Source: Bryopsis sp. KO-2023 (taxonomy: Eukaryota; Chlorophyta; Ulvophyceae; Bryopsidales; Bryopsidaceae). From it: DNA of 64,000 nt. Within the stretch, counting starts at the first letter, position 1, and each line of letters begins with the position of its first letter. Below, piece after piece: positions 10,180-60,892 of this stretch. The position numbers were made by a program, and so were the translations under genes. The DNA lies in NCBI GenBank assembly GCA_030272585.1, contig BSYQ01000008.1:1736001-1800000 (forward strand), in the 5' to 3' direction. Below the pieces are notes generated by a model. That model searched no databases. It had not been told where the DNA came from and was given only the letters and a program-made list of their open reading frames with translations.

Positions 10180-13100
10180 TCAACTCTGGGCAGGGGGTTG
10201 CGATGGGGGGACCCCCGCATTGGTCAAGTTTTGTTGCCAGGTGGTATTCTGGGGCGGAGGCACAGCCGCCGGAGTGCTGGTTTTGGAATTCAACCATGCC
10301 TTGAAATCAGCAGTCCGTCTCGTCTGGGAAATCTCGATGGCTCGGGTGTCCTTCCTCTTCTTTTTCTTTACCAACACATCCTCCGAACCCAGCACATAAG
10401 CCAATTTCGACGTTTCGCACGAAATCCTACCCTCCAGACCATTATCCATGTAGAATTGCGACAAATGCTCCGCCTCAAACCTCCCGTCGTCGTTTTTCGG
10501 GATGGTGGGGACGTTTCGGCGGAGCAACACTGGGGTGAACCCCTCTCCGGTCTGCACCCCATTGTCACACGATTTCCCGACAAATCCCTTATAGTACTCC
10601 ATGAAACTTGGCTTAACGATGCTGCCCCCCATTTCGACCATGATGTCTGGGCTCATCATCTGAACAGTGAGTTGATTTTCCGGGGTTCTTTCCACACGGT
10701 AAACCTGGTCTTCCCTCAACACCACCTTGCAGTTGGAAAGATACATTTCCTCACGGATGGTGTTTCGCTGGCGCTCGTACTTGTACAAATCCCACACTCG
10801 CAGGGAGATCTCATCCAAAACCAATGCTTGTATGTGTTTGATCATTCGGAAAATCAGCTTGTCCAGAGTGAACAACACATAAGAATTGGTGCTCAGCAGC
10901 GATCGGCACATGTCCTCAAACTGCGACATCTCCATCGTGTTGTCGATCAATTGATACACCATCGCTCGGAACTGTCCGTGCACCTTCTCGGCAGCTTCCT
11001 CCCCATCTTCGACGTGACTGGGCTCCCCCACTTCCGAGGAATTGCTGTTGGGCTGGGCACCCTTCTCTTGCGAACGACAGCATTTCCTCGCCATCCAGAG
11101 GCGATCGTACAAGTAGTGATGGAGGCGGAAAAAGAGATAGAAGGGCTCGTTGCAGTACAGCACCGACCCGTCGTGACTGTCACTGGGGGGCGATGTGGAG
11201 GGTGCTTCTGGGGGAACGCAAGCTGAAGAGCTGGGGCCGGCACCGCCTTCAGACTTGTGTCCGATTGCCACCAGGGGCTGACACCCGCCAAACAGACGAG
11301 AAGGGTCCTGTTGCCTGTCCAATGGAAGGGCTTTAGTGCCGTCAAAGTCTTGCTCCTCTTGCTCACCCATCTGCTCGTCCGATGCTTGGCCAGGACTGTC
11401 CTTCGAGCCTTTCCCTGCAAAAATCCGGAAAATCCACATGACTGAATTATTCATATCGCCAAGTAAAGCGTAAGACTTTACGCTTTTTCAGACCCTCTTC
11501 CCACCCCCACCCAAAAAATGAAAAAGTTGAAAAACAGTACAGGTTGGACTAATTGGACCAAAAAATTTCTGTGGAATTAAGCTATGGAATGAGGTAAAAT
11601 CGAAGCGATCAGGGACCCCACCTGCAGCATCTTTCATGGCATAGGGTGGTGTCGCCGGACCGGAAATCTCCCCACTCACAACCCGATCTTCCTCCGCTTC
11701 GACAACCCCTCCATCATCGTCCAAATCCTCCCTCAACCCCATGTCCATATCTTGAGGTTCTTCCTCCTGTGCACTCGGAGACCTTGCTGAGCCGACTTCA
11801 TGGGGGGTCACCCCAAAGTAGGGCTCAACAAACCTACTCCAGAAATCCATCGCCTGCTTGTAAGCATCCGCTGAAAGCATCTTGCTGGCTGCAAACCTGA
11901 CGACGTCGTACACATCCTCATGGACCGCCCTGTCCGAGTAATCGAACGTCATGTGGGCCTGGAGGTTCGATTCCAGGGTGGTGGCGGTCGAAAGGTTCAG
12001 CAATTGCTGGTCGTCTGACTTCAGCTTCTCTGCAGCATCCTTGATGTCGAGAATGAGCTGCTTTGGGGCCAGGTTCTTTTTGTCCGACTGCTTGAAGTAG
12101 AAGCTTCGGTGGTCGAGCGATTTGTGATAGTTGGTTTGAAAGAGGGATTGCCAGTGCGCGTTCATGGTTTCACGCACGTGCCTCCATTCCTGGTCTTTCT
12201 GCTGCATTCTCGACAGCACCACGGGCATCGCGATCACTGGATTCTTTTTCAACAGCTCCAGCACATGTCTGCCCTTGTCACTGTTGCAACCATACGACGA
12301 GAAAAACCCAACATTCAACCTCTTTTACTAATCTTGTTCTCTACCGAATGCATCGGGGGGGTCCATTGTGCCAGGGAGTGCCCCTTAGATTGCTATTCAC
12401 AAAAAAGGAGAAAGCCCTGGCCATCTTGACATATATCAAACACAATCAGAGGAAAAAGCCACCCCACCCCCCCTTTCTTTCGCCCCATAGCTCTTTCTGT
12501 CTTACAGTAACATCGACCAAGTCATGGATATTCTTTACCAAGCCTGCGTTTTAGCACCACACACCCACCCACCTGTAAATGCGCTCTATTATCCTGCAGT
12601 GGACAGGGTTCAATGAGCCCTCAGGCAAGCTGTAATTAGCTCTTTCTTCAGGGGACAGGTTTGCCAATCGATCTTGAATCGGACCGAGGGCCTTCATGGC
12701 AGACGTGTTCCTCTCGATCGCCATTTCCAGATCATATCGCTCATCTTCACATCTGAAATACAAGTCAACACATGCATATAAATCCCCATTCATAACAACA
12801 CCCCCCCCAAAAAAAAACACACACACACCCCTCAACCATTCTTCCCCATTTTTTCACATGCATATCGAGCCCTCGACTCGATGGGTTTCCTTCTCTGACA
12901 AACAATGGGTGTATATATCTTGCCACTAAGGTAATAAAAAGGTTTGAATAGCCCCCCCCCCAAAAAAAAACAAAAAAAACAATTTTTAAAAGGCTCAACA
13001 ACACACCCACCCGCCTCTCACCTGAAAAGGTTTTCTTCATATTGGTTTTTGCGCATGTGCTTGAAGGAGCTATCTTCCGTTCCTGTGGTTACGCTGGCCA

Positions 13101-14280
13101 GCTCGTCTTGGAGCACAGCCTCCCCAGTGACGGTTCGCCCGGAGCATTTCATTATGGGGTAGTCCTTGGGCAAGCGAACATAGGAAGTGGTGGGCCTCTC
13201 CAGAGTGGTGGTGTCCAGCTCTGACACAGGCCTGGTCAAATATTTGTTTCTCTGAGCCAGCAAAGCCCTGCTCCTCTGGACCTGAGCCAATCCCCCTCGC
13301 CCGGCCTCCCTGGAGTTGGACTCCCCGCCTAGGTCGTCATCCACGCCGGAGGATGACCCGATAAACTGCATGAAAGTCGCCATGACGTCCGGGTGTTTCC
13401 CGATCACGTCTTGAACCAGCTCCAAGAGTTCCGGTTTGCTGATGACGTCTTGGGCGTACAAATTCACGCATTTGAGCAAGTCGGTGTACGTTTCCCTGTT
13501 GTTCAGCTTGGACTTGACTTCAGCGAAAAAACGGAGTTCACGCTCGTAGTCAAGCTGGTCGCGGGGACCGCGCCGGGCGTCATTGCTGTTGCGCGCGGAC
13601 CTTCTGCGCGAGTAACCCCCGTCAATGGTGTTCGACTGGGAGGACAAGGGGGCCATCGCCCTCGCGCTGGTGTTGAGGAGATCCTGCGCGGCGGGACCGT
13701 CTTGGGAATGGTCGGGCAAAAAGTAGCCAAATTCGTCGAGCAAATCCTCGTGCGTCCTGAACAAGTCTGCGACCTCCCTGTAAACCGCGTGGATGTCCAT
13801 CCGCCCTTGCCGAAAGCAGCACAAAATTTCCAAGAAGTTTTTGTACACCCGCTCGTCGTTGGCAAACCTGGCCTTGATTTTGTTGATATAAGTGATTGCC
13901 TGGTCCAACTCCACCGCCGGCTTGGCCTCCCTCCTCTCGGGCGAAAGAGTGATTTCCGACCCCTTGGGCAGGAAAGTGTTAAACCCCAGGATGAGATCGT
14001 TGTGACCCTTCAGCAACTCCTTCACCTTTTTGATCACCGTCGCTATGTCAATTCTCTGCGCCTTGAAGTCCTTCATAACGTCCAAGAAGGAATCATACAC
14101 GTCCTTGCGGTTGTGAAACCGCTGCTTGACTTCGCGAAGGTAAACCAAGGCGTCATTCGTTGTCAACGCATTCCTCCTGATTGCTTGCTGCGCCGGACCC
14201 TCCGGACGAAAAGTCCCACCCCCAGCGACCGCCCGTCGAGAAGTAGCACCCATTCCACCGTCCTCCCTGGGCTTGTTCAT
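10180..14280 (-). CDS. SIN3: SIN3 transcriptional co-repressor (paired amphipathic helix protein)
   Basis: Four exons with matching phases: 14280-13022, 12752-12573, 12319-11622 and 11414-10180, giving about 1123 aa. SIN3 is the nuclear scaffold of histone deacetylase co-repressor complexes. Exon 1 encodes three PAH domains (roughly residues 39-105, 122-190 and 243-308; for example VYLREVKQRFHNRKDVYDSF). The HDAC-interaction region starts at its end (TTSYVRLPKDYPIMKCSGRT) and continues through exon 2 (IERNTSAMKAL) and exon 3 (GRHVLELLKKNPVIAMPVVL). Exon 4 holds the conserved C-terminal SIN3 motif NEPFYLFFRLHHYLYDRL. The protein is shorter than plant SIN3-like proteins (about 1300-1400 aa) but has every core domain. 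The first acceptor of exon 3 was chosen by phase. Confidence 0.92.
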
Positions 14281-15421
14281 TTCCTAAACAAGTCCCTCAC
14301 CTCGAAATCCCCCACCGTTAATAGACGTTCTTTCTTTGCGTTTTTCACCCTATATCGTTGCCCCTCAGCGCACCTCCTCCTCGTCCCTTTCAGACTTTTT
14401 CTGCACAGCCGGCAACCAAACAGAGGAGGTCTTCGTTTCAGCGGTGGTTTGGCGTTAGCAGTCACGCATAAGTCTCGATAAACCAAAAAAAATAATAAAC
14501 CAAAAAAAAAATAAACTGGCACTCTTTGGTGGGTATAATCGACGACAACCCTCAAGCGTGCAAAAACCACACGATTTTTTTTTTCCTCATGCTAAAAAGG
14601 CCAGAGACGACCAAAAAAAAATCATACACAAAAAATAAAAACGAACCAAAAACAAAACAAAACACGAAAAGCAGCGCAATGTGGCGCACACTCACCCAAG
14701 TTGGAAAAGAGAAAAAATATATTCTTTTTTTTTCCTTTGTGCTCGTCCACACACACACTATAGAAAAACACAACCGGTCCAAAGCGCGGCCCTCCCAAGA
14801 ATTCGTCGCAACGATTGGTGCCAAAAAAGAAATGCAGGTGGTGGAACGGAGCGTAAAAGAAGAATGTGAAAGGAATGTGTAGAATTGGTGGGCGGGAAAT
14901 TCGAGCGCGCGTGACCGACGAGACAGTCATGGAGGCGCCGCAATGTACGACAATATACGAAGCGGAAAGGCAGCCGTCGAACGGTGTTTCCCCAAAACAC
15001 AAGCGCTGGAACAACAACAAGAACGCAGGGAGGTGAAGGGGGGGGGGGCTCTTGTATCTTCCAGCATATTTATAAAGATTTCAAGACGCGCCACTGGGAA
15101 GCGCATGATGTGTTCTAGTGAGTTTTAGGGGGCTCAGTTCTGAGGGTCGTCCAGGTATCCTGCAGTGTTTGCTGGTTTGGGAGCAGATCATTTTTCTCAG
15201 CTGTTCTCGTTTCTGTCGAGTTGCTTTAAAGTTTAAACGAAGGACGCATTCGTTGAGGTGGCGTCGATTGAACGACTCCGTGGACATCGGTGATCGCCTG
15301 TTTTAATACTTGTGGTGCCTTTTCTTCATTCAAAACTCCAAAATTGCACAAAAAAATTGGGAAAATGCTTCGAAGAGCAGGTCCTCCGAAACATGCAAAA
15401 CAAGAAAGGAGATGGCTGCCA
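14281..15421. other. Spacer between SIN3 and CFAP141
   Basis: This holds the presumed SIN3 promoter and 5' UTR (next to 14280) and the 3' side of CFAP141. It is AT-rich with poly-A/poly-T runs and a short CA tract near 14750. No convincing ORF or RNA gene was seen. Confidence 0.5.
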
Positions 15422-26959: not shown

Positions 26960-28483
26960 CTAAATCTGACGTTCAGGATCTTTTTTGATATCATCCACAG
27001 CAGGGGCCGGAGCGCTTTCCTGGGCCTTGTGTTTCGCAATCCATTTCCCCACGATGTAAGCATCGATAAACAGTTGCGAGATATGTGCGATCACGCATGG
27101 AATCGTGATCAACCCCAGGTCCCCCACGACGCTCTCGTCCAAAAACGAAATCACCGTCACCGAAACCGGCAGCGTTTTCTGACTCGCCATGATCAGCACC
27201 GCTTTCCTCTCCCGTTCGCTCATTCGTAGAACCCCCACCGCCCCGAAATTGAACACCAGGAAAATGAGATGCATGGCGATCGCAGCCGCCAGCACTTCCA
27301 GGATGTTGAGAATATGCTGATCGATGATCGAGTCTTGCGATCGGCTCAAGGTTTGCCACACCACGCAAATGAGCGACCCGTTACTGATCAGACTGAGGGG
27401 AATCTTGTGTTTCGTGACGAGTTCTTGCACTGTGACGTGCACTTCTCGCAGGCCCTTCCCGACCAGCAACGGAATCAGGATGGTCAAGGTCAGTTTCACC
27501 ACCAGCTGGGTGGTGTCGATGCTGATGTTTTCGGCATTCACCACCAGAGAAATCGCAAACGGGGTCGTAACGATGCCCAGCATGTTGGTGAAAACCGTCA
27601 GCATCAGGGCTAGGGCTCCGTTTCCGAAGGCTTGAGTGACTAAAGTGACTCCGGAGGTGAGCGTGGTTGGCACCGCTGCAAAAATAGCTAATCCAGTCGC
27701 AAATTCGGGGGTGCTGAAGGGGATTTTGACCAGGCCGAAGCCCAAGCACGGGGTGATGATCAAAATCATGATCGCCCCGTACAGAAACCCGACGTATGCT
27801 TTGAGGGCGGCTGTTATGTCAGCGGTTTTCAGCGTCAGGCCTGATATGACGAAAATCGTGCACACGTTTATGGTTTGGATCAGGCGGAAATTGCCCACCT
27901 GCACAATCACAGAAAAAGCGTACAGAGTTTTTTCGAAAGGCGGGTGGAATTTGGGTTAGGATGAGCAGCAGATTTGCTGGTGCTGATATATGTTTGTATA
28001 TATTTATGTATATATGTTTGTTTTCTGAATTGATCGTATATCGTAGTGCACCAGTTGGGAAAAAAAATACAGCGTGAAAAAGGAAGAATGACTTTGATGA
28101 AATCACGGCCTTGTATTTCCTAATGGTATTACTAATATTAGTCATGTTGATAACATTAACCATGATTTCTGTCATGACAAAAGAAGAAAAATTCCAAGTT
28201 CCAAAACTAAATGAATTAACAAATAAATGCACAAGTAGCCCCCCCCCCCCCCCCAATCAGTCATTTGCATAGCGGGTGAGCTTTCAAGACATCAGCAGAA
28301 GTATAGTAGAAACAATAAATAAATAAATAAGAATACTAGAAATAAAATGGCAATTAAATTATAGTAATAACAAATAAATGAAGACAAAATAAAATCGATA
28401 ATTCTGTGTGCCCACCTTCCATCGAGAAATTTCATCTCCTGGATATGGCCACAGCATCGCCCAAACCAGAGCAACGAAAAATC
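26960..28483 (-). CDS. BASS4: BASS4 / SLC10A7-like sodium-coupled transporter (5' end not resolved)
   Basis: Two exons joined in phase: 28483-28416 (22 codons, FVALVWAMLWPYPGD) and 27898-26960 (312 aa to the stop). The first coding exon upstream is not identified, so the gene extends beyond 28483. The protein is a ten-helix bile-acid:sodium-symporter fold of the SBF-like branch. Diagnostic stretches are TIFVISGLTLKTADITAALK, FAAVPTTLTSGVTLVTQAFG, GNGALALMLTVFTNMLGIV and KAVLIMASQKTLPVSVTVI. In plants BASS4 is plastid-located; in animals SLC10A7 acts in the secretory pathway. Without the N-terminus the compartment here is unknown. The tail is hydrophilic and ends DPERQI. Confidence 0.85.
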
Positions 28484-31420: not shown

Positions 31421-34400
31421 ATGCCGAATCACAGTTACTATGCAGGAAAATCGGACCTGTTTATGTGGGTCAATCAATTATTGGACTTGAACATCTCCAC
31501 CCTCGAGGAGCTGTCGAACGGGGCAGCTTACTGTCAGATTTTGGATGCTTATTATGAAAACAAGGTTTCACTTCACAAGGTAAAATTGTGTCAGAGTTTT
31601 TTTGGGGGAAAAAAGAGATTAAATTATAAAAAAACAGGAAAGGGAAGATGGTGGTTATCCGCTTAACAGAGAATGGGGTAAAAACAGATGGTGCCAAAAT
31701 AAAAAGACTGTGGGAGGAACGGGGGGTGTTGAATTTTGAAACGAATGTGGTTATGTGAAAAACAAGACAATGCCTTGTTTAACAAAGAAAAAAATTAACA
31801 AAAAAAATTTTCTATACAGTTTGCCAAAGGGGTGCGCCAGCCCAGCTGGTCTTTGTTTTAGTGTTTTACTGATCATGTTGGGATGAGTTATTTTTGCTGC
31901 TGTTTTTGCTTTAACGAAATGCCAGGTCAACTTCCAAGCAAGGAAGGAATACGAGATTTTTTCTAATTACAAGATATTGCAAGCATCGCTGAATTCGGCA
32001 GGGTTCAACCGAGACCTGAACCTTGAGGTGCGTTTTTATTCTCCAGGGCTTTTTTTTTTGCTTTTAAAATCCCGGAGGGGGGAGGGGAAACATTCGAACA
32101 TGGCCTTTTCCCTGAAAACCCCCCCCCCCCCCAAAAAAAAAAAAAAAAAAAAAGATGCAAAAAAAAAATAAATAAAAAACGAAGAGAAGAAACCCTTTGT
32201 TTTTGCCCTCTGTTTTGTGGAAAGTTTTGGTTGAAGCATTGTTTTTTTGTGTGTGTGTTTTTTCAAAACAGGGTTTGTTAAGGGGAGGCCAGGGAAATGT
32301 CCTAGAGCTGCTCCAATGGATGTTCATGAGTTTGAACAAACAGAAGCCCCTGCCCTCTTACGACGCAAAATCTAAAAGAAAAGTGACCCTCAATGGGGGG
32401 TCCAGTAAAATTCCTTTGCCTGCGTGGCGCTCCAACAAATTCGATGTGTTTGGAAGATCGGCCACGATGGGCTCCAACAGACGATTAGTCAACACCCTTT
32501 CGGTATGCTGAAATGCAACCAGACCAAAGAAAAACCATTTGATTGTGAACTTTGGGATTCGAATTTTCGAATTAACAGTTGAGGGTTATTAAAGCAAAAT
32601 ATCTCATATGCTGCTTCTGGCACTTTTTTGTTTTTAGAGTTGATTGTGGTTTTTGTTTGAATATCTCAATTTTGGCCATTTCGAGTGTATTCATGTAAAT
32701 CATCACTAGTTTTCTTTTTTTATTATTTGTATTTTTATTAATTTATTTTTTTTGTGCTTTTTTTTGGGGGGTTGCGTAGGGAACTGAATCCGTCGCTGGT
32801 CATCCACGAGTCTTGAGAACTGCTTTCAGTCAACAGCCGGTGCGTCAGACCAGCACTTCGCGGTCTCCATTGCCGCCCGCCAATCGTTCGCAAGGTAATG
32901 GCAGCACCACTCCAAACGGAAATAACATCGGTGGAAGTGGCTCCTTGTCTCCGGTGCCCCCCAAATCGCCGCTTCCGACTCGTTCACCCAGCCATCAACA
33001 TCGCAAAGCGCCCTCCTCAGACCCCAACGCAAACCCCAGACATGAGGCCAGTCCGGATAACAGCAAACCAGCCAAGCAAGCATGGCGATCGCCAAGAGCA
33101 TCCCCTATGAGGTACCCCTTTTTTTTATCATAGGTGTACTGATATATATATGTATAATTTCAAATATGAGTATATATGAATGAATGAATGTTTAATTTAC
33201 ATTAGGCAAACTTGCCCAACGAAGGCCGTCCACAGGTGACTTAGCCCTGCCCTTAGTAAGAATCCAGCTCAAGAAAAGAAATAAGAATATAAAAAAATAA
33301 AATACGTATATATATATATTTTTTTTTTATTTTTTTTTTTGTGTGTACATTATAATTTTTTTTTTGCTGCAGGAACAATGGAAGCCTGATGCTGTCTTCC
33401 AAGGGTATTTCGATTCCCCGCTTGAAACTGGAGGCACTGTCTGGCACTTCGGATACATCATTGAAAGTCACTCCGGACGGGTCCAATCGCTCGTCCAAGC
33501 CAAGGAGCGTCGGGAGGAGGTCACCCATGTCACCTGCTCAACATGAGTGGAAAGGGACGCCTAAAGATGGTGCCACAAAGTACGTTAAAGACAGGTTCAC
33601 AGGGCCCAACTGAAAACACATAGATTCATGAAAGTATTTGAAAAGTCCCACGCGCACCCCTTCTGAGAAGAAAAAGAAAAAGGGTTTTAAATATATATAT
33701 ATATACTCTGAATGCCGGCTGATTATATATATATGAGGGCAAAAGACCTTCAGACTGGTGTCCCTGGTGAAATTGCTTGCCGGCAGGTTTTTTTTTTTTT
33801 AAATATAATTTTTTATTCAATTTTTTTTTGGGGGGGGAGGTCCAGTTTTACTTTCGGAGGGCAGCATCAGCATATCTAAACATTTTTTTCAACTGTCCTT
33901 TTGAAATAAGTATCACAAAAAGCGACATCCATGAACCCATTGAATGTTGTTGTGTGGTGGTACTAGAAGTTTGGGTCATTTGCTTGCGGAAATCGTTCCG
34001 GTGTGCCTGAAGGCAGCGGCCCAGGCGGTGAGCTCGGTGATTCAGGCCAGCGAGACTTTGCAAACGCTCATAGAGCATGTGGGCACTTCGCAGGACACTT
34101 ACGCTTGCAGGGCGAAACTCCACAGTCTCAGGGATGCAATGAACACGCTCATTCGCCACACCACGTAAGGAAATTATATATATATATATTATAATAAAAT
34201 TAAAGTTAACCCTTCACGAAAATTGCTTCGAATTGGAAAATCGAAAATTTGACCTTTCGGATCTGACATTAAGACAGTGGAGTATGCAGTATCCATGTGC
34301 ACCCACACGGAAAACGATGTCTGATTTTTTATTTTTTTTTAAAGAGATTATTGTTTTATATCGGATGTGTTTTATATATACACATGGGAGGTCAGCACTT

Positions 34401-36232
34401 TGTTTTCGAAAAAAAGAAGAAATGCTTTTTTTTTTTAACCCATGAAATCCATTTCTTCTCAGCTGTACGCTGACATATATTACCCCCCTGGGAGGGTTTT
34501 TTCCGACATAGGTTGCTTTTGGATGATCTTGGTGGTCCGGTGAGTCGGCTCAGGGAGTCCGAATCGTCTCAAGCCGACAGGCTGTTCACCGAAAACTCGA
34601 TGCTCATCAGAAGGCTGGAGGGAGGCCGAAAAAAATTCCACGATCACGTCATTGTTCTGAGCTCAAAGGAGCAAGCCCATCCAGTTCCGAAAGGCACGTC
34701 CGCCAGCGGACTGTCGGACCAGCTGCGAGAACGAACGGAGTCGGACAATCTTGATGGGGCTTTGAGAAAGGCAAGCAGCAGGGGTGGAACAGCAGTTAAA
34801 AGCTGGTCGTCTGAGAGAATCGTCAAAAAAAATAAAATGGAAAGAGGAAGAAGAGTGGTGATATGCTGTGTCAGCCCTGATCACTGCTTTTTGCGGAAAA
34901 GATGGCCTCAGAGGGGAACACACTGAAATTGGGATGCACTGTGAAAGTATCCACCAGGGTGGATGTCTATGTCGTCTGGCAAGGTTTCCTCACAATCTCA
35001 GCCAGACATGGGTTCCATCAAGGTTTGATTGTTTTTCCCCTGACTTTTTATCTTTTCTCGTTTTCCGTTCAGGTTGGTGCAGCCAAGGCAGCTCTTGGCC
35101 GGGCCTTACAGAAAGTTGGTGGTCTGGAGACGGTGTCCAACACAGGTACCCAATTCGCGGACCCTAAGATGGAGTTGGAGCCGTCGGAGCTTGAGTCCGG
35201 TGTGACTGAGGGCATCGAAACTACGCCAGCTGCTGACATCGATGGAAGGGGGGATGAAACCGAAGCCTCGATATCGGTAAGGGGGGGGGAGGGGGAATTA
35301 AAATATTTTTTATTTTTTTTTGATGTCTTCTGGAAACCTGATCCTTTAAATGGGGTGGATTCTTTTTTTTTTTTTTTTCCGAGGGAGGGGGGGATTAGAA
35401 AAAACAGAGGATTCTGTATGGTGTCAGGATTTTAGCCTTTTTTTTCCTCCCCTCATCGTTATTCAATTTTTTTTTGTTGAACAGTAGCATTCTGTCCAGT
35501 TACAGCTTTTGTTTTGCTGGATATAAATATATTAAACAATTTTTTGTCGTGTTTGATCTGTTCAGGTCGGATATCCAGACGGCATCAACTACCCAGGCAA
35601 CAGCGAAGTATACAAAGGACAGTACGTCCACGGGAAAAAATGCGGTCACGGAACTTACACTTTTGTTAACGGAGACGTTTATCAGGGAGAATTCAAGGAC
35701 GACGAAATGCATGGCTGCGGGCTGTACACTTTTTCACACGAGGGGCACTACGAAGGCCAGTGGGTCATGGGGGTATATGAGGGCGTGGGAACGGAGACGT
35801 TTGCCCTGGGATCTACCTATCATGGCCAATACACCGAGGGCTCCCGAAACGGATGGGGTGTTTGTCGGTATTACAACGGGGATTACTACGAGGGCCAGTG
35901 GAGGGAAGGACTGAGGGAAGGAAGGGGTATGCAACAGGTGGGGTTGCGGAGAGGTTTTTTTTTTTTTTTTTTTTTTTTAATTCGTCAAGATTAAATATAT
36001 TATATATAGAGAGAGAGAGAGAATTTTTTTTCTTCTTTTTGAGATTAAATATTATATAGTGAGAATTTTATTACTTTAGTTTATTTTATTTTTTTTGGGG
36101 GGGGGGCCTGTGAACCTTGCGACTGTCCAGAAAACAGGTTTGTTTTTGAAAAAGAAGAAAATGACAGAAAAGAAAGAAAGCTATGATGCTGGATTTGAAA
36201 CTGTCGATGGGACCAGCTTGAACAAATTACTA

Positions 36233-36267
<35 letters not shown>

Positions 36268-37166
36268 TTTTATTTGTTTTTTCAATATTAAAAGTGTGTG
36301 TGTGTTTGTTTTTTCTTTTCTTGTTTTCCTTCCTAATTTCAGTGCACCGATGACAGCAATTTTGTTGGGGACTACCTGTATGGGAAAAGACACGGCTGGG
36401 GGGTGTACAACTTCCCCAACGGAGACCGCTATTACGGGGAGTACGTCAATGACATTCCGCACGGCCATGGGGTCTACAGATTCAGCAACGGCCAGAAATA
36501 CGAGGGTCAGTGGCAGGCTGGCAAAAAACACGGCTACTGTGTGTACACCGTTGAGACCAAAGGAGTTTGGGAGCGGTGGGCTGGCGAATGGGAAGAGGGG
36601 CGGCCGGTGTGGGTGGAGAGCCTGAGTCGCTGGGATAATGATATTTCTGGCATGCCCAGCGAGCTCCGGGGAAAAATGGAGCAGGTAGAAAAGAGGGGAC
36701 GAAAAGAATTTTTGATTGTCCTGGATTTTTTTTAAAACACATTTTTTTTTCTAGGCTATTTTTCTTTCTCGTGGCAGGATTTAATGCTGCAATAAATATG
36801 TTCGGTGTTCTTTTTTTTCTTTTTTTTCCATGTTTTCTTGCAGGAACGTTTTTTTTATCATTTGATTTTGGTTTTCTTGTTATTGTTTTTCTTTCATTAT
36901 TCCTTTTTAACTTGTGGTAATATCAGGCACTGAAGGCTTGCAGAATGGCTCAAGATGCTGGAGAAACAGGGATGTCTCGGGCAGACGAGCACTGGCAAAC
37001 CGACGGCAGCATCCAAAAATCCATCCGAGAGGTCGTCCAGAGGGCAGACAAAGCCGCCATTTTGGCCAGACAGGCTCAGAAAAATGCACTGGAGGTCGCA
37101 GCCAGGCTGGATGCAGCGGAAAACAGAAAAAAAACCAACGCAGTCCCCGTTTTGACAAGACAATAG
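31421..37166 (+). CDS. EB1-type calponin-homology domain fused to eight MORN repeats
   Basis: Twelve exons with matching phases: 31421-31579, 31926-32027, 32272-32502, 32780-33111, 33206-33235 (30-nt, possibly optional), 33373-33579, 33967-34164, 34512-34770, 35073-35276, 35566-35937, 36343-36684 and 36927-37166; about 891 aa. Residues 1-110 form an EB1-like CH domain ([40 protein letters not shown]), the microtubule plus-end binding module. An SxIP motif (SKIP, residues 132-135) sits in a basic Ser-rich patch. A Ser/Pro-rich linker, two helical segments (about 354-506) and an acidic stretch follow. Eight MORN repeats span about residues 585-800 (for example [17 protein letters not shown]); the fifth crosses an exon junction. 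The C-terminus is a helical, Ala/Arg-rich tail. No EB1 C-terminal domain is present. The intron at 34771 appears to be GC-AG. Confidence 0.85.
32119..32153. repeat. C14A21 compound homopolymer in an intron
   Basis: A run of C directly followed by a run of A, in the intron after the second exon of the CH/MORN gene. It is one of many such tracts in the window. Confidence 0.9.
36233..36264. repeat. TA microsatellite in an intron
   Basis: About 15 perfect TA units in the intron between the two MORN-repeat exons, followed by a T-rich tract. Confidence 0.9.
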
Positions 37167-41688: not shown

Positions 41689-43693
41689 ATGACCTTGCGA
41701 TTGCACGCCGCCGTGGTGGCCCTTCTTATATCGCTTTTGCCGTATGGATCGATTGCGGGGTTCGTCCGTTGCAAGGTTAAGCAAAAGCTTGAAAAACTGT
41801 GACTGTTTACGATGGATTTTCCTTCGGGGGGGCTGGGTGTTTGTGTTGCTAGTCAGGCGATGCAATAAAGGGAAGGGGTCCCCCCCCATTCCAGCGTGCT
41901 TTTTTTGTATTCAGCGTGCTTTTTTTGTATTCGGAGTGGGTCGATTGAACAAATCAAAATGGTTTCGATCTCTGTTCCAGGGCGATTTGTTGGCTGCAAA
42001 GGATGTAGCTTTTTTGGAGTGGCTGATTGAAGAAAGACAATTGCCTAAAAGATTTTGCAAGGTGTATTCCTATGAATATTCTGGTGAAAAAAGGGACAGA
42101 GTGGGAGTGGTTGTGGGGCCCGCTTGCGATGCGGTCAGTTCCATTGCGTTGAAACGCAAAAAAACGATTGCTTTATGTTTGGAAGACTTCTTGACCTCGG
42201 AGGCTGGTTTCCATGAGATACACTTTCGATTTCAGTTTCCAATTTTCATTTGATCTGGATTGAAGCTGAATTTGGAAACAAAAATAGGATTTGTTGGTTG
42301 TGTCGACCAGCGATGGGGGATAAACTTCATTTTCTTTTTTAATGTCCATTTTTTTCTTTGTTTTTCCCGCAAGAATCGCTTTAGTCGAGTTTCAGGAAGA
42401 AAATTGGCTTTTTTCCTTAAGAGATATGAATTCATTACTGTCCCCAGGTTTACATTTCCCTTAGGTTTACATTTATAGGGGGGGGTCTTGTTTGCATCCA
42501 TTCCAGCATCATGGAGGGTGATTGCTCTTCTTTTGCTGTGGTTTGTCATTAATGCTTGATTGATTGAAAAGAAAAAATAGACATTGAGAGGCATCTGAGG
42601 TGGGATTTCCTTCTGATTATATTAATCTGAGTCAAATGGGGGAAACAACTTTTACAAGAACCTTGTGGTGTGGTGTAGGCGCTCCTTGGTCAGTCTGAGG
42701 GTCTAGTCGGCCCTGAAAAACCTAAGTCCATCACTGGACTGCGGTTCCGTCATACATTCTCAGCCAAACAATCAGTTTTGGACGATGCAGTGCAGAAGCT
42801 CCACTCTCTTCCTTGTCTCACAACCATCAATGCCCATGGTGCTGCAGCACTCAGTAAGAGTTCCCGCACTTTTCAAAATCTTGGCGGTTTTGAAATCAAA
42901 TCAAACCTACCTGGTTTCGGGGTTCGTTTCAGTCAGAATTCAGAATTCTTCCTCAACTCCACCACAACAACTGTGTGAGTGTTGTTCCCACAATGTGATT
43001 CGACAATTCCGACCAAAAACATCACAAGATGCGCCAGGCCAGTGCCTAATTCGATAATTCGACGTTTGTTTGTTGGTGTGTGTGTGTGTGTGTGTTTGTT
43101 GTGTCCCATTCCAAAGACTTTTTGACCTCCGATAATTTCCGAAGGCTGTCAGTCAAAGAGCTGGAGGCAGACATCCGAACCACTGTGCTGGTCAGAGCGC
43201 GTCGTTACTATGAATGTGGAAGCTTGTGTGACGATCCCATAGAGCTGATGCTACCGCCCTCACTCCTAACACTCGAAATATGGGGATCTTCCAGACAATT
43301 TAGTTTGTTGGCCGATAGCAGAATAACAGTTTTGCCATCCCTTCCAAAAGGGCTGCAGAAGCTTGTTATAAAGCACACGCGGATTGGTGGGAAGCTGCCA
43401 CAGAGGCTGCCTGAGAACATACGGCACGTGGAGCTTGGGGAAAACTTGTTCGAGGGGGACGTCCCGAGCGAGTGGGCAAAAGCAACAAAACTGGAGGTTT
43501 TTGTGGTTCATGAGGAGAGACTGCGGGACTCGGTTGATTTGAAAAACGTGTGGCCTGGGATAAAAGATATCGATGTGTGCTTGGGCCATCCCAAGAAGAG
43601 ATCTCAGCCCCTGGAGGCATTCGTTAGAAAAAGCTCAAACGCATCCCAGCCGTTGCTGTGCGTCGGTTTTGGCTGCAGTGGTTCTGGCTGCGA
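41689..43693 (+). pseudogene. Secreted LRR-type gene (copy 1) cut by a transposon
   Basis: Exon 1 (41689-41775) is a clear signal peptide (MTLRLHAAVVALLISLLPYG). Exon 2 (about 41981-42130), exon 3 (42679-42853) and exon 4 (from 43117) join in phase. Exons 3 and 4 encode leucine-rich ectodomain sequence (DDAVQKLHSLPCLTTINAHG; LPKGLQKLVIKHTRIGGKLP). They parallel copy 2 (49161-50927) in order and intron phase (phase 1 between exons 3 and 4). Exon 4 stays open until 43693, where the CACTA element begins, just before the point where copy 2 enters its membrane domain. No membrane segments follow on the far side of the insertion, so the receptor-like C-terminus is lost. It may still make a truncated, secreted protein. 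Ligand unknown. Confidence 0.6.
43691..43693. repeat. Left 3-bp target-site duplication (CGA)
   Basis: Identical to 48846-48848 and directly adjacent to the element terminus. Confidence 0.7.
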
Positions 43694-43736
43694 CACTATG
43701 GGAAATCGCGGTCTGTGCGGGGTGTTTTGCAGACCC

Positions 43737-44108
43737 CGCACAGAACCTTGACCACCCATGCACAGGGCAAACAACACCCCGCACGGCTCTGTGCCCCGGT
43801 TTGGCCCCGTTTTTTGCGGGGTCCCGAATTAACCCCGCACAGACTGGTACCCCGCACACAGAACCTGACGTCTTTCCCGTTGTGGGACCCCGTACAGATG
43901 AAACATAGCCCCGTACAGTGTGCGGGGCAGCCTATTCTCTGTACGGGGGTGCCGTGCGGGGTGGATATGAAAGACGTCAGGTTCTGTGTGCGGGGTACCA
44001 GTCTGTGCGGGGTTAATTCGGGACCCCGCAAAAAACGGGGCCAAACCGGGGCACAGAGCCGTGCGGGGTGTTGTTTGCCCTGTGCATGGGTGGTCAAGGT
44101 TCTGTGCG
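43737..44108. repeat. 140-bp perfect inverted repeat inside the CACTA terminus
   Basis: Arm 43737-43876 is the reverse complement of 43969-44108, with a 92-bp spacer. The arms consist largely of the TGTGCGGGG subterminal motif. This makes identical mirror-image reading frames appear on both strands; they are not genes. Confidence 0.9.
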
Positions 44109-49160: not shown

Positions 49161-50927
49161 ACGGGGAAGGGCGACGCAAGGCTCGTCACCCGCAGTCAGA
49201 ACTACACCGAGCTGGACATGAAGTTCGATTACGATTTTGACTACAACGGGCCTTCCCGATCCTTTTCGCACTCACCGTGCTACGTTGAGCGACTGCGAGC
49301 CACAGTGGTGGGAGATTGCCCACACCGAAGCTCACCTGTACAAATCGCTGGTGTTCGGATGAAGGGGCTTCCAAGTGGTCGACGATCCGTGGAGGAGCTC
49401 TTCGATTTATTGAAGGACCTCCCGTGCCTGCAAACCTTACACATGGATGGTTGCCCTGGTAAGGTGCAGCCTGCCAAACAAACGAACCAGAATTCACACT
49501 GGAAAAGATAAAACGCTTCGGTTTGTGTTTTCACCGTAGTGGTGGCCGTACCAGTGTGGAAAACTGTCTTGAAAAAAGACTGTAACAAATCCATTCCTAT
49601 TTTGTAATTAATGTATTTTCCGTGACGGACCAACAGCGACGTGTGAATGATTTCAACCCATTTTTGAGTGTCGCGTTTTCCCTCAGGTTGGCTGGCAGAC
49701 TTAGGCACTCTCCATCAACTTCGAAATTTTACTTTCACGACGACGTCCACCGAAGACTGCCCTAAGGCTCCCACAAGCGCAAAAAGCATTGGTATGATCT
49801 TTCCACCCAACCTGGAGATTCTGAAGACACAAGGCATCAGGTTTGGCCCAGGGGAACTATCCACTAGCGCCCTGCCACATTTGAATCAACTGGACATTAC
49901 CCATTCGGGTTTGCCGGAAGATCTGCCCGCTGGACTAAAGCATCTTCGAATCGAGCTTAATCCGACCCTCGAGTGGGTAATTCCGAAGGCCTGGGCAGAG
50001 CTGACCCAGCTGAAGACGATGGCTATCGAAGGGACCTCCCCGTCCGACCGCCTCCTGCTCCAACTCACTCCTGTATTTGACGAAATGATGTGGCTGCTAA
50101 CCGTGAAAACATGCTTGCGAACCACCCTTCCAGACCCTACTCGGGTTCAGTTTTGCAGCGTGGATATCAAACTGCGGTTGTGCACCTCACCCCCAAAAAA
50201 TCTCGGTTGTGGAACCGACTTTGCCCTTGCCACTGGGCTTTCGTGGTCGGCTGTTGGTCTGGTTATTCTTGCGCTTCTGTGTTGTGCTTGTTCTGGGTAC
50301 CAGTATGAACACTCCGTGGGCGTCGTGCACAGGTCATTCGGAGTGGTGTCGCTCGGCGCAATTTGCTCTTGTGTGTGGTTGACCCTGGAAACGTTCCCGT
50401 CCATCTTTGCGAGAGTGATGCTTGGCATCGGAGGGCTTCACTACGTTGCTTTTATGCTGTCGTTCTGGATATCAATGAAACACGCAGAAAAACACGCATG
50501 TTTTCCCAGCGATGCAAGGGAGAGTAAGCCTGTAATGCTGGACACCGCTTGGTTTTTTTGGCGTTTTAAAGGAGGGCGTTTCTCACGTTGCTTGAGCGCT
50601 GCGCTCATTGTTCTCGCTGCGCCGTCGGTGTTGGAATTGGCAGGTCTGTTCCACACGATCACTGGAAGCAAGATTCCTTGCGTCACGTCTGAGATGGATT
50701 TGAGAGTGTGGCTGCACTGGAAGGTTGCACTGCAAGGCCTCACTGCCTCCGCCTTCCAAGCAGTGTTTCAGAGTATCGTGTTCAACTTGCCGCTGGCCAA
50801 GTTCTTCGACATGGTGGGAGCCCACCACCATGTGCCTTTGTGGGTGTTGGCATTGACCTTGGTGCTGTCGCAATTATCGATTCTGCTGGGAGTCGGTCGG
50901 GCGTTGTCGCCAATTTCAGGCGATTGA
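49161..50927 (+). CDS. LRR ectodomain protein with six membrane helices (copy 2)
   Basis: Exon 49161-49458 and exon 49687-50927 join in phase 1. The N-terminal part has leucine-rich segments (EELFDLLKDLPCLQTLHMDG; LPAGLKHLRIELNPTLEWVI) and ends with paired cysteines (CSVDIKLRLC, LGCGTD). Six hydrophobic helices follow, for example AVGLVILALLCCACSG, MLGIGGLHYVAFMLSFWI and LWVLALTLVLSQLSILLGVG. This is a receptor-like layout: extracellular LRRs plus a multi-pass membrane domain. Copy 1 has a signal peptide exon; I cannot find the equivalent here, so the 5' end is missing or displaced by the nearby transposon. The membrane domain family is unknown to me. Confidence 0.65.
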
Positions 50928-55112: not shown

Positions 55113-56978
55113 CTATGTGGCCCAGTGATCGTACCCAGTATACACAAACTTCTGCTTCATTTGTTTTGATTTGATCGAAACGAAAAGTGCCACCAAAGCC
55201 CCCAACCCAACGCACGCAACCTTCCCGACCGGGCCCGCCCCAGCACCCCCACTCTTGCTCAAAGCTTGCACCATCATCAACATCGAAACACCGAGGCCAG
55301 CCGCCACCACACTCGCACACTTTTCCAGAATCCCAAAATTTCGCATGGCCCCGGAACACTCTTTGCAGTGTTTCGTGTGGGAGTGGTAACGATCCAGCAT
55401 CTCTTCCTTTTTCAGCAAGGGTTCAACACCCGAACACAGGAGGTCGCCATTGGGGAGTTTCGGCCCCCCGCCCCCTCGTTTTCCATGAAACCATCTCCTG
55501 AATTTGGCGATCATCAGGTCAGCTGTCGATGGAATGAAGTACTCCGAATTCCATGTTTTCCCCTGCTGGGCAGCTTTCCGGAGAGTCTGACTCTGTGGCC
55601 TCAGCAACACGATGTCCCCGTCTGACACAGCGTTGTTCCCTAAATGCATTAGCCACTTCGGCTTGGTGATTTTCATCCGCAATTTGACAAACCAAGGAAG
55701 GCTTTGCAGAATCACCCCCCGGAAGAAAAGTTTGGATTTCCCTTTAGAAGTGGGGGTCATGTTGACCATCAAGTGCTTGAACTTCTTCCCATTTTTCATG
55801 TCAGTATACAGCGTCGTGCCCGGTTCGATAAACTCCATTTCCGTTGTTTGAACAATCTCCTCATCCCCTTCTTCCGGTGCTTGCTTCAGCCCTGTGGGTA
55901 GCAATAAAGACTTCATGCCAATTCTCAGCGTCGCTTTGGAATCCTCTGGCACTTTTTCCACCTCAGCCTCCATCCACCCCGCGGTGTCTCGATTTCCTTG
56001 AATTCCGTGATGTGCATAGGCGACGTGGGAAGGATCCATTGAATTTTCCATCACGATATCGAACGAGTAGGGCACCTCACGCATGTACAAAGGGTAGATT
56101 GTGGTGCTGGCTTCAAAGTCTGCACGGAACGGTTCCTTCATTGAGCTGTCGATGTATGCTGAGGGGCTGCCGTCCGGCCACACCCACACCATCCCATCTA
56201 CCACCTGTCCTTTCATGATATTTCAAGCAACAGAGAGGGAAAAAAATGCTCAACACAGACATTAGTGCACAAGAAAGATAAGAATTGTCAAACGAAATCA
56301 AATTAATAATAGCCACGATTAATCAGATTAGCAGAGCCTTGGCACCCCTGACCACCGATTTGCATGCAGGTGGATTTGAGGGAGGGGGAAAAAATGTCTG
56401 AGAATATTGGAAGAATCAACCTTGGTGGGGAATGTCGTGACTTTCGATCTGCGATTTTTGCATGGACTGCCCTCCTCGTGCGTTTTCGCTTTCACTTGAG
56501 GAATGTCGACGCAATTGCCACCCCCATCGAATCTCCAACCATGATACGAACACATCAAGCTCCCGTCCGAAGGCTCGATCCTCCCTTCCGACAGCGGGGC
56601 CAATCTGTGCGGGCACACGTCCTCGAAGCACCGCCACTCCCCCTTTTCGTTCCACAACACGATATCCCGACCCAAGATCTCGATAGGCTTGGGCGCCATC
56701 GGGTTCAGGTCGCTCTCTATCGCGACAGGGTACCAAGCCTTGGTCCAGTCGAAAGGTGTGACGTCCGTTTCGACGGATCGTTCCGGTTTGGGGACATCTT
56801 TCCCGACGTTTCTGTCGAGTTGCGTGGTTCGGACAAGATGCCCGGGGCGAGCCTTGGCAGGAGCTCGCCAGCCACAGTAACTCACGTCCCTGAGGGCGTT
56901 ACGTGGAAATGAACGCCATACTGCGCTGGAGGGAGTGCGATACGCTGTCGCCTGGAAGCGGGATGACAGTGGAAGCAT
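55113..56978 (-). CDS. Pheophorbide a oxygenase-like Rieske oxygenase (PAO/PTC52 family)
   Basis: Two exons, 56978-56421 and 56204-55113, join in phase 0 to give 549 aa, close to the usual length. The first 50 residues are Ser/Arg/Ala-rich, like a plastid transit peptide. The Rieske cluster ligands are C-P-H (EDVCPHRLAPL) and C-S-Y-H-G-W (LMCSYHGWRFD). The mononuclear iron site is ENSMDPSHVAYAHHG. The C-terminus has the family's redox motif CKEC (HTKHCKECSGAM), then two hydrophobic segments that would anchor it in a plastid membrane. Family members oxygenate chlorophyll catabolites or related tetrapyrroles. Which subfamily this is (PAO, PTC52 or TIC55) cannot be settled by eye. The donor GTTGAT is weak, but the phase and alignment across it are good. 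Confidence 0.88.
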
Positions 56979-58470: not shown

Positions 58471-60892
58471 TCACATTTCGTTTCCGTGGACTCGAACTCT
58501 ATACAAACAGGTATAGTCTCCCGAGCCATGGTTGCTAATGATCTGCACACATGCATTGAAACCAAAACAATTGTATCGCAAACGGGGAGAAGCCAAGCCA
58601 TGTTTAATCAAACACAGAGATACCCAAAATTGTTTCTGCACCAGCCTTCAGGACAAGATCAAACAGCATGTAACAGTGGTCAGTGTTGCATTCATGACTA
58701 AATCACTCCTCAAGGAAATTCCAGAAGAGCAGCCCTTGCCAGAGAATGAGTGATTTACCTTCAGTCTAATGTGGCTGACTGGAAGCTTCCCATCAACCAT
58801 GTCGAATGTCTGCACGTGGCGGCCGTCTTCTTCGAACGCGTATCGGCCCAGCTCCTCGAATCCCTCCATACCTTTTCCTTTTCTCGTGGCGTTGAACCCC
58901 CAAACTTCAAACTCCTTCACAGCAGGGCTCCACTGCCCCCTATAGGCGATACGCTTATCGATGTGCTCCAGTGTTATCGCTGTTATTGCTACAGGAGCTC
59001 TGAGGCGAACATCGATGGAACCTGACGAGCCCGCCAACGGCAAGCATCGGCCAGGCAATGTCCCAGGTCGAAGAACCAACTGTTTGGGAAACACACACGG
59101 ATTGTTTTTCTTTTTGTGCAAGAAATTGATATCAACAACTTTGCAGAGAAGTGTTGGTTTTTGCTTCTTTCTGTTCGATATTTCGTCCAGTTTAAACAAA
59201 GCTCCACCTCGTCGGCCAAGGGATGGATCATTTGCGCGCCAAATCCCATAGTTTTGGAACACTCCATGCAAAATTCGATGAAGCAAGGCCAAAGGGCAAA
59301 CGAGCTCCAGGTACACAGATGGAATCCACGCAGTAATGCAGAATGCCCCACAACACTGGCTCCAGCAGTAGCGAGGGCGTAGTCAGGGAGCCCCTGATGA
59401 TCAAACACCCCAAACCTTTTAACTCAAGAGAATCCTGTTGTTTTGAGGTGAGTTCGTATATGAAATGCACTACCGCTCCGCGGGTTTCATCAATAGAACT
59501 GCGGCTTGTAAGGGCAAGCGACACCCACAGAAACTTGGTCGGTTTTCAGACAATCAACTAACAATCCACAGTAAAATAAACAACTGTCGGTTTTCAGTTG
59601 CTGTTTTGCGATGGTTGATGTGGGTTTCGGCTCACGGTGATGTCAGCAGTATAAGTATCCAGCTTCGCCTCAACTATCTCCTCCACTCGATTGCGAAACC
59701 AGTTCACGGGCTCCTCCCCCCTGCTACAAAAACCCAAACTTCATGGCAGACTTGAGGGCAAAAAAAGACCCATTTGAAGGTTGGTTTCAAAACAGGGGTC
59801 TCAGCAAAGTAAAATGAAAGCTTGGGAAAAAAATAGATTTCAAAGCTGTGGCATGAGATATATGTATCTATTGAAACAAGGGCACCATACCCTTCTTGAG
59901 TGGGCTCCTCTTGAAGCATCCCATATTTTTCCACCATGGAGTCCAAAGCCCTTTCCATTGATGCTAATCTGCATCAAAAAAAAGATATTTCAGTCGAGTC
60001 ATGTTGAATAAATCAATTCTGTGCACTAGAGAAAATAAAATCCTAAAAAGGCAGCCTGATATCTCATACCATGTCTGACAGACAATAGCACATGGGCATT
60101 GTCGGTAAAGTTAGTAAGGGAGGGTTACCAAACACATATTTTTTATGGCGATTCTCAAGCTGGTTGAAAGATGGCTGCAAGAATGATGTTGCGTTCAAGA
60201 ATGAGCAAAACCTCCACGTGCCTGGTTTCGGCCTCCGATTGTTTCTCCTTGTTTTGATTCACGGCCTCATGCAGCGTTGCGACGTTGATCAGCGCCGAGT
60301 CGACCTTTTCCACCATTTTCTTCGAGCCCGAAAAAACTCCAATCACAGCAAAGACCACACAAACCAGAACGATCCCCGCCGCCGCCATTTCCATCCCACG
60401 GATTTCGCAATGGTTGAACCCACGGTCGACTCGCTGATCTTCGCATGCAGCGTTTCGCAACGATATTCGATCGCATTGCGGTGGCGTGTTGGGTCTTTTC
60501 GACGCTCTCCTCTGAACAACTCCGCTGCCTATCCCTGAGTTCTGCGATCCAACCAAGCCAACCAATCATTTAAACGAAACTCCACTTTCGAGCAGCATCA
60601 TTCGATTTCTCACCGCTAGGTTCGCAACATTGCTGCCTCGACCCGCGTTTCCATTCTCGTCCCCCTCCGGCTTTAACCGAGAATTCCTGTGAGCTCTGGG
60701 GAAGGGCGGCGGGTCGGTTTTTGCCTGCGATGAGGGAGGTGACGGAAGTCGAGACCCTTGCTGGCTAGATTTCACGTTCGACTCCACGCCAACCAGTATC
60801 GGTTTCGTTCTCGGGGGCGGCGCCAGCGCCACCGACGGCCCTTCTTCGAGGTTCTGCAATTTGTTTTTCTTTCCCCTGCGGCGGCCTGCCAT
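58471..60892 (-). CDS. SUN-domain protein of the nuclear envelope
   Basis: Exons with matching phases: 60892-60614, 60541-60212 (last border uncertain), 59968-59891, 59720-59636, 59393-59208, 59079-58759 and 58542-58471. SUN proteins span the inner nuclear membrane and bind KASH partners to link the nucleus to the cytoskeleton. The N-terminus is basic and Pro-rich (MAGRRRGKKNKLQ). One membrane helix (MAAAGIVLVCVVFAVIGVF) is followed by a coiled-coil stretch and the SUN domain: DYALATAGASVV, PGRCLPLAGSSGSIDVRLR, APVAITAITLEHIDKR, WSPAVKEFEVWGF and the end SNHGSGDYTCLYRVRVHG. The layout is that of classical C-terminal SUN proteins. One small exon between 60212 and 59968 may be missing, because the phases there do not match directly. 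Confidence 0.88.

Follow-up and report, generated by a model that had tools for sequence, protein, structure and literature searches.

An EB1-type CH domain joined to a syntaxin Habc-like domain and MORN repeats in a family of green-algal proteins

The window analysed here is 64,000 nucleotides of DNA from the green alga Bryopsis sp. KO-2023 (contig BSYQ01000008.1, positions 1,736,001 to 1,800,000), and the gene in question, BSKO_09187, lies within it on the forward strand, its product of 881 residues (P0001, identified by protein search) being deposited as a "hypothetical protein". Its sequence supports one gene giving one protein that joins a calponin-homology (CH) domain of the EB1 type to MORN repeats, and between the two lies a domain whose sequence is related to that of syntaxin Habc, which an earlier note on this DNA had missed. 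The architecture is well supported by sequence and prediction, whilst the order of events that produced it and its function are what we infer. The explanation that best covers the whole is an EB1-derived microtubule linker of the chlorophytes, to which about an even chance is given.

From the ATG at 31421 to the stop at 37166 there is a single open, in-phase multi-exon reading, so that the coordinates and agreeing exon phases given earlier hold, and in the spliced frame no start or stop divides the CH from the MORN half, as had been claimed. The count of twelve exons stands in part: a 12-exon version is open and in phase and would encode 891 residues, but the annotated protein has 11 exons and omits one of 30 nucleotides, and with that exon removed the model is 100% identical to P0001 across 881 residues. 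Spliced onto the window, P0001 is reproduced identically. All introns end in AG, and the GC-AG intron at 34771 is the sole exception to GT-AG, which the other nine follow. The parts of the gene, with the 11 exons as given by spliced alignment, are:

31421 to 37166, forward strand: whole coding region, P0001 in 11 exons
31421-31579, 31926-32027, 32272-32502, 32780-33111, forward strand: exons 1 to 4
33373-33579, 33967-34164, 34512-34770 (GC donor), 35073-35276, forward strand: exons 5 to 8
35566-35937, 36343-36684, 36927-37166 (stop codon included), forward strand: exons 9 to 11
33206-33235, forward strand: optional exon, in frame, used by the 12-exon model but not by the annotated protein

The domains of the protein fall on these exons as follows:

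31436 to 32382, forward strand: EB1-type CH domain, residues 6-124, exons 1-3
32383 to 32445, forward strand: extension behind the CH domain with [ILV]PxP, a family signature, residues 125-145 (motif scan and predicted local confidence, pLDDT)
32446 to 33966, forward strand: low-confidence linker rich in Ser, Pro and basic residues, about residues 146-343, exons 3-5 with introns
33971 to 34677, forward strand: syntaxin Habc-like three-helix bundle, residues 346-465, exons 6-7
34744 to 35114, forward strand: conserved helix, residues 488-510, across intron 7
35611 to 36621, forward strand: eight MORN repeats with closing strands, residues 580-781, exons 9-10
36658 to 37139, forward strand: C-terminal helices, residues 794-873

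That the CH domain in the first three exons is like that of EB1, as had been proposed, is agreed by sequence profile and predicted fold, with P0001 matching the sequences of solved EB1 structures at E 1.9e-20. When the family CH profile is compared with the PDB, even the weakest EB outscores the best non-EB sequence by some 25 orders of magnitude, and therefore an identity as CH_2 (sperm protein) or CAMSAP, for which Pfam gives just 1.5e-4 and 0.049, was rejected. No EB-homology domain (EBH) was found, in agreement with the earlier note: the EB1 C-terminal domain PF03271 is not among the families listed for P0001 (Pfam, E<=1) or among the seven listed for 19 family members (E<=0.1), thus the protein is not an EB1 family member in the full sense. 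Behind the CH domain the pLDDT stays at about 90 up to residue 140 and is below 50 for residues 143-343, and residues 125-345 hold 33 Lys and Arg against 10 Asp and Glu. The conserved element of this region is [ILV]PxP, found within the first 230 residues of all 23 members scanned. An SxIP was considered as a family motif and rejected, as its site in P0001 is filled only in P0001; [ST]xIP occurs at other places in 8 further members and nowhere in the remainder.

The MORN repeats are tandem, of 23 residues each, starting at residues 580, 603, 626, 649, 672, 695, 718 and 741, and match at E 3.8e-33 (Pfam). Eight had been counted in the tenth and eleventh exons, which are exons 9 and 10 of the 11-exon model, and the fifth (672-694) does cross a splice junction, its intron falling after residue 688. 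Given this E value and that of the CH domain, a chance origin of the two sequence matches is excluded. A Foldseek search with the MORN part places apicomplexan and trypanosome MORN1 in the top rows (32-34% identity) and junctophilin-2 fourth, and in the predicted structure, though only there, the MORN sheet packs with the C-terminal helices in a junctophilin-like manner. A hydropathy scan of P0001, made without a dedicated predictor, gave no strongly hydrophobic stretch, the best 19-residue mean being 1.42 at residue 353, in a Habc-like helix and not at the C-terminus. The suggestion that MORN repeats are often membrane binders is contested: in passages of PMC7725318 TbMORN1 binds single phospholipids yet does not bind membrane or vesicles, and the repeats are there termed protein-protein modules.

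The domain missed by the earlier note sits between CH and MORN in the family alignment, and its predicted helices in P0001 span residues 346-381, 389-425 and 431-465. Excised, it scores 30.9 bits against PF14523, for which the cut-off is 26.5, and 25.6 bits within the whole of P0001, whilst a profile search with it finds Syntaxin-12 (2dnx) at 1.6e-8. The syntaxin family is matched by all 15 of the selected middle domains and every other listed family by one, the set having been selected from 25 middle pieces, some hand-trimmed, with P0012, P0016, P0017, P0018, P0021, P0022, P0023 and P0121 left out for long inserts or poor alignment and P0025 and P0028 left out as well. Against the 91 Mb genome the syntaxin profile returns the window gene and its paralogue as matches 2 and 3 of 6, both under the cut-off because the domain is split by introns, and outside the family the middle domain finds its best hit, at E 6.7e-4 within a small set enriched in syntaxins, in a Bryopsis locus that matches both Syntaxin_2 and SNARE. 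The predicted fold agrees with Habc, though fold scores alone are weak. That this is a generic three-helix bundle with a convergent likeness to syntaxin is doubtful, as sequence profiles rank syntaxin first in the structure, selected-set and genome comparisons and the nearest outsider is that Syntaxin_2 and SNARE locus. The SNARE motif PF05739 has no match in P0001 (E<=1), and none of its five listed genome matches (E<=0.001) lies inside the BSKO_09187 gene. By sequence, residues 346-465 are related to the Habc domain of syntaxins, with no SNARE motif detected.

The earlier note took the architecture to be new as far as its author knew, which it is not, as it belongs to a conserved green-algal family already in the databases and spread over four classes. 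The family comprises 27 rows (P0001-P0026 and P0028, chosen by the authors out of 120 matches listed of 174), the MORN region being aligned in all 27 and the CH region also in 23; the four without a full CH (P0020, P0023, P0024, P0025) may be truncated models. Named members are Ostreobium (Ulvophyceae), Myrmecia and Coccomyxa (Trebouxiophyceae), Pyramimonas parkeae (Pyramimonadophyceae) and, in the Chlorophyceae, Chlamydomonas incerta, Chlamydomonas schloesseri, Volvox, Pleodorina and Edaphochlamys, with classes looked up for four of the named members. Since P0010, P0011 and P0028 are transcriptome records (the CH of P0028 by alignment only), CH and MORN are in one transcript in relatives. A second family search gave 11 proteins with three new identifiers (P0121, which was used, and P0122 and P0123, which were not) and a third gave 4, none new. 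The chlorophyte-only range holds for the matches listed in these word-matching searches, and no row among them is named C. reinhardtii, many rows being nameless. Relatives are called "hypothetical protein" or, automatically, "Calponin-homology (CH) domain-containing". No study of a CH and MORN protein was among the papers listed, mostly outside subscription journals, that deal with MORN together with calponin homology, EB1, syntaxin or algae, nor is one mentioned in passages of PMC7999657, PMC10104144 and PMC9026201; the family is apparently unstudied, which is not to say that this is a proven first sighting.

Bryopsis itself has a paralogue of the same architecture, BSKO_10883 (L029, G000:C10:441127-448084), of 15 exons and on another contig. 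As Ostreobium likewise has two rows (P0002 and P0006), the duplication may predate the split of the two genera. There is also a separate, ordinary Bryopsis EB1 with an EBH (L011, contig C9), and three CH introns are common to it and the paralogue. Weak EBH matches lie elsewhere in the genome at C1:8912704 and C7:3495821, the former having been rejected as a second ordinary EB1 since its frames, by eye, are unlike EB1. In a tree of CH domains (18 family and 5 EB rows) 17 of the 18 family rows group together at 85/91 and the remaining one, the long-branched Pyramimonas row, is placed next to Bryopsis EB1 (73/70), whilst a branch separating the five EBs from all other rows occurs in 25% of bootstraps.

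What the CH domain might do on microtubules can be judged from the protein Mal3, in which, according to passages of PMC3368265, Y56, K63, K76 and Q89 were tested: Y56A and charge inversion at K63 or K76 weakened binding, Q89E impaired end tracking, and Q89A gave more binding to the whole microtubule. Counted in 18 of 25 family CH pieces and five canonical EBs, the binding contacts are conserved in the family (Tyr or His at the Y56 site in 18/18, Lys or Arg at the K63 site in 17/18 and at the K76 site in 18/18), with the paralogue BSKO_10883 having Asn at the K63 site. The end-reading loop is mostly lost, with Gln at the Q89 site in 1/18, D90-N91 in 2/18 and Lys or Arg at 87 in 1/18; P0001 has Gly at 87 and Asn-Val at 90-91 and so lacks the K/R-x-x-D-N pattern. 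All five canonical EBs have the basic residue at 87 and the Asp-Asn pair, and four have Gln at the Q89 site, Bryopsis EB1 having Leu. From the conserved contacts we infer that the family CH is a microtubule-lattice binder without end reading, and because the loop is lost in most members lattice binding would be expected rather than tip comets; the basic linker could add affinity.

Binding at plus ends, as put forward in the earlier note, is therefore not favoured. A true plus-end tracker, in which the CH domain follows tips, dimerisation through MORN replaces the EB-homology dimer and membrane or other cargo is brought to the tips, is rather unlikely in view of these loop residues (1/18 and 2/18 in the family against 5/5 in canonical EBs) and of an SxIP peculiar to P0001 among the members scanned. 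Of similarly low probability is a flagellar or basal-body component like the ciliary CH or MORN proteins FAP178, Spef1, RSP1 and FAP266, for which there is the presence of ciliary MORN proteins among those that the MORN part matches in fold and sequence and the presumably flagellate lineages of most named family members, as well as the description of Spef1/CLAMP as a ciliary EB-type CH protein in passages of PMC7999657. Against this, no solved Chlamydomonas ciliary chain is near-identical, the best for MORN and tail being FAP266 at 1.6e-26 (a limited comparison, with no C. reinhardtii row among the matches listed) and for the CH profile FAP178 at 0.0064, and axonemal identity was on this indirect evidence rejected. 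A divergent member, P0026, is moreover found in Coccomyxa sp. Obi, of a genus that is not known to have flagella. It might also be argued that an EB1 fragment and a neighbouring MORN gene were wrongly joined, the structure at the locus being drawn only from DNA and the annotated protein. This is very improbable indeed and was rejected, as the same joined architecture recurs in 23 of 27 rows, P0001 included, in the paralogue on its other contig and in the three transcriptome records, with the conserved middle domain lying between.

An EB1-derived linker would have arisen when a copy of an EB1 gene lost its EB-homology tail and acquired a syntaxin-Habc-like bundle together with a junctophilin-like module of MORN repeats and helix. 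The CH domain is predicted from its conserved contacts to bind the microtubule wall, the disordered basic linker would supply reach, and the Habc-like bundle and MORN module may, going by domain likeness, hold a partner on an endomembrane, the cell cortex or another protein scaffold. Since a SNARE motif could not be detected there, the Habc-like domain probably offers a SNARE, or a protein that handles SNAREs, a place to dock. A bolder version, of fairly low probability, is that green algae evolved a dedicated microtubule-to-membrane linker. In it an EB1 head that exchanged tip tracking for binding to the lattice would carry a regulatory domain of syntaxin type and a membrane-junction module of junctophilin type, and a single protein would place vesicle fusion or membrane contact sites directly along microtubules. 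At growing microtubule ends EB1 acts as the hub, and a conserved derivative without its dimer and partner domain and mostly without the end-reading loop, to which syntaxin- and junctophilin-like modules were added, would amount to a natural experiment on how a tip tracker can become a linker. It would also be a concrete candidate for tying organelles or cortex to microtubules, both in giant coenocytic algae like Bryopsis and in the unicellular algae related to them.

Other frames in the window lie around the gene. About 3.5 kb upstream, on the opposite strand, is an SBF-like transporter frame (PF13593, 5.7e-52) at 26963-27955, and about 21 kb downstream, also on the reverse strand, is a SUN-domain frame (Sad1/UNC, PF07738, 3.6e-18) at 58651-59382, SUN being a nuclear-envelope cytoskeleton-linker domain. 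A Sin3 co-repressor gene occupies 10183-14283 on the reverse strand, where different long frames hold the PAH repeats, Sin3_corepress and Sin3a_C, and a pheophorbide a oxygenase-like frame (PF08417, 1.5e-11) lies at 55116-56222 on the same strand. Frames that by eye resemble leucine-rich repeats are at 43050-43751 and 49668-50927 on the forward strand, the latter with no Pfam match at E<=1e-5.

Compared with known systems, the protein resembles EB1, EB3, Bim1 and Mal3 in its N-terminal CH domain, in the YDPxARR-like tail behind it in many family members and in CH intron positions common to the paralogue and Bryopsis EB1; it departs from them in having no detected EB-homology domain, in the loss from most members of the end-reading loop and in the added middle and MORN domains. 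From CLAMP/Spef1, which is not known to have an EBH, MORN or Habc, the family is set apart by a CH profile far nearer EBs than any other PDB sequence. What they share is an EB-type CH, which CLAMP/Spef1 carries as a microtubule-binding and bundling protein in passages of PMC7999657. The three-helix Habc-like bundle is like, in sequence, that of Qa-SNAREs of the Syntaxin-7/12, Pep12 and SYP2 kind (PF14523), which differ in that P0001 has no detected SNARE motif (PF05739). The predicted packing of MORN repeats with an alpha-helix recalls the junctophilins, in which the repeats are N-terminal rather than C-terminal (580-781 of 881) and which have a C-terminal transmembrane anchor and tether two membranes, whereas P0001 has no strongly hydrophobic stretch and carries a CH of microtubule type. 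MORN1 of apicomplexans and trypanosomes shares the repeats at 32-34% identity, although TbMORN1, in the passages describing it, consists of repeats only, without CH or Habc. The ordinary EB1 of Bryopsis has a homologous CH, and differs in retaining its EBH.

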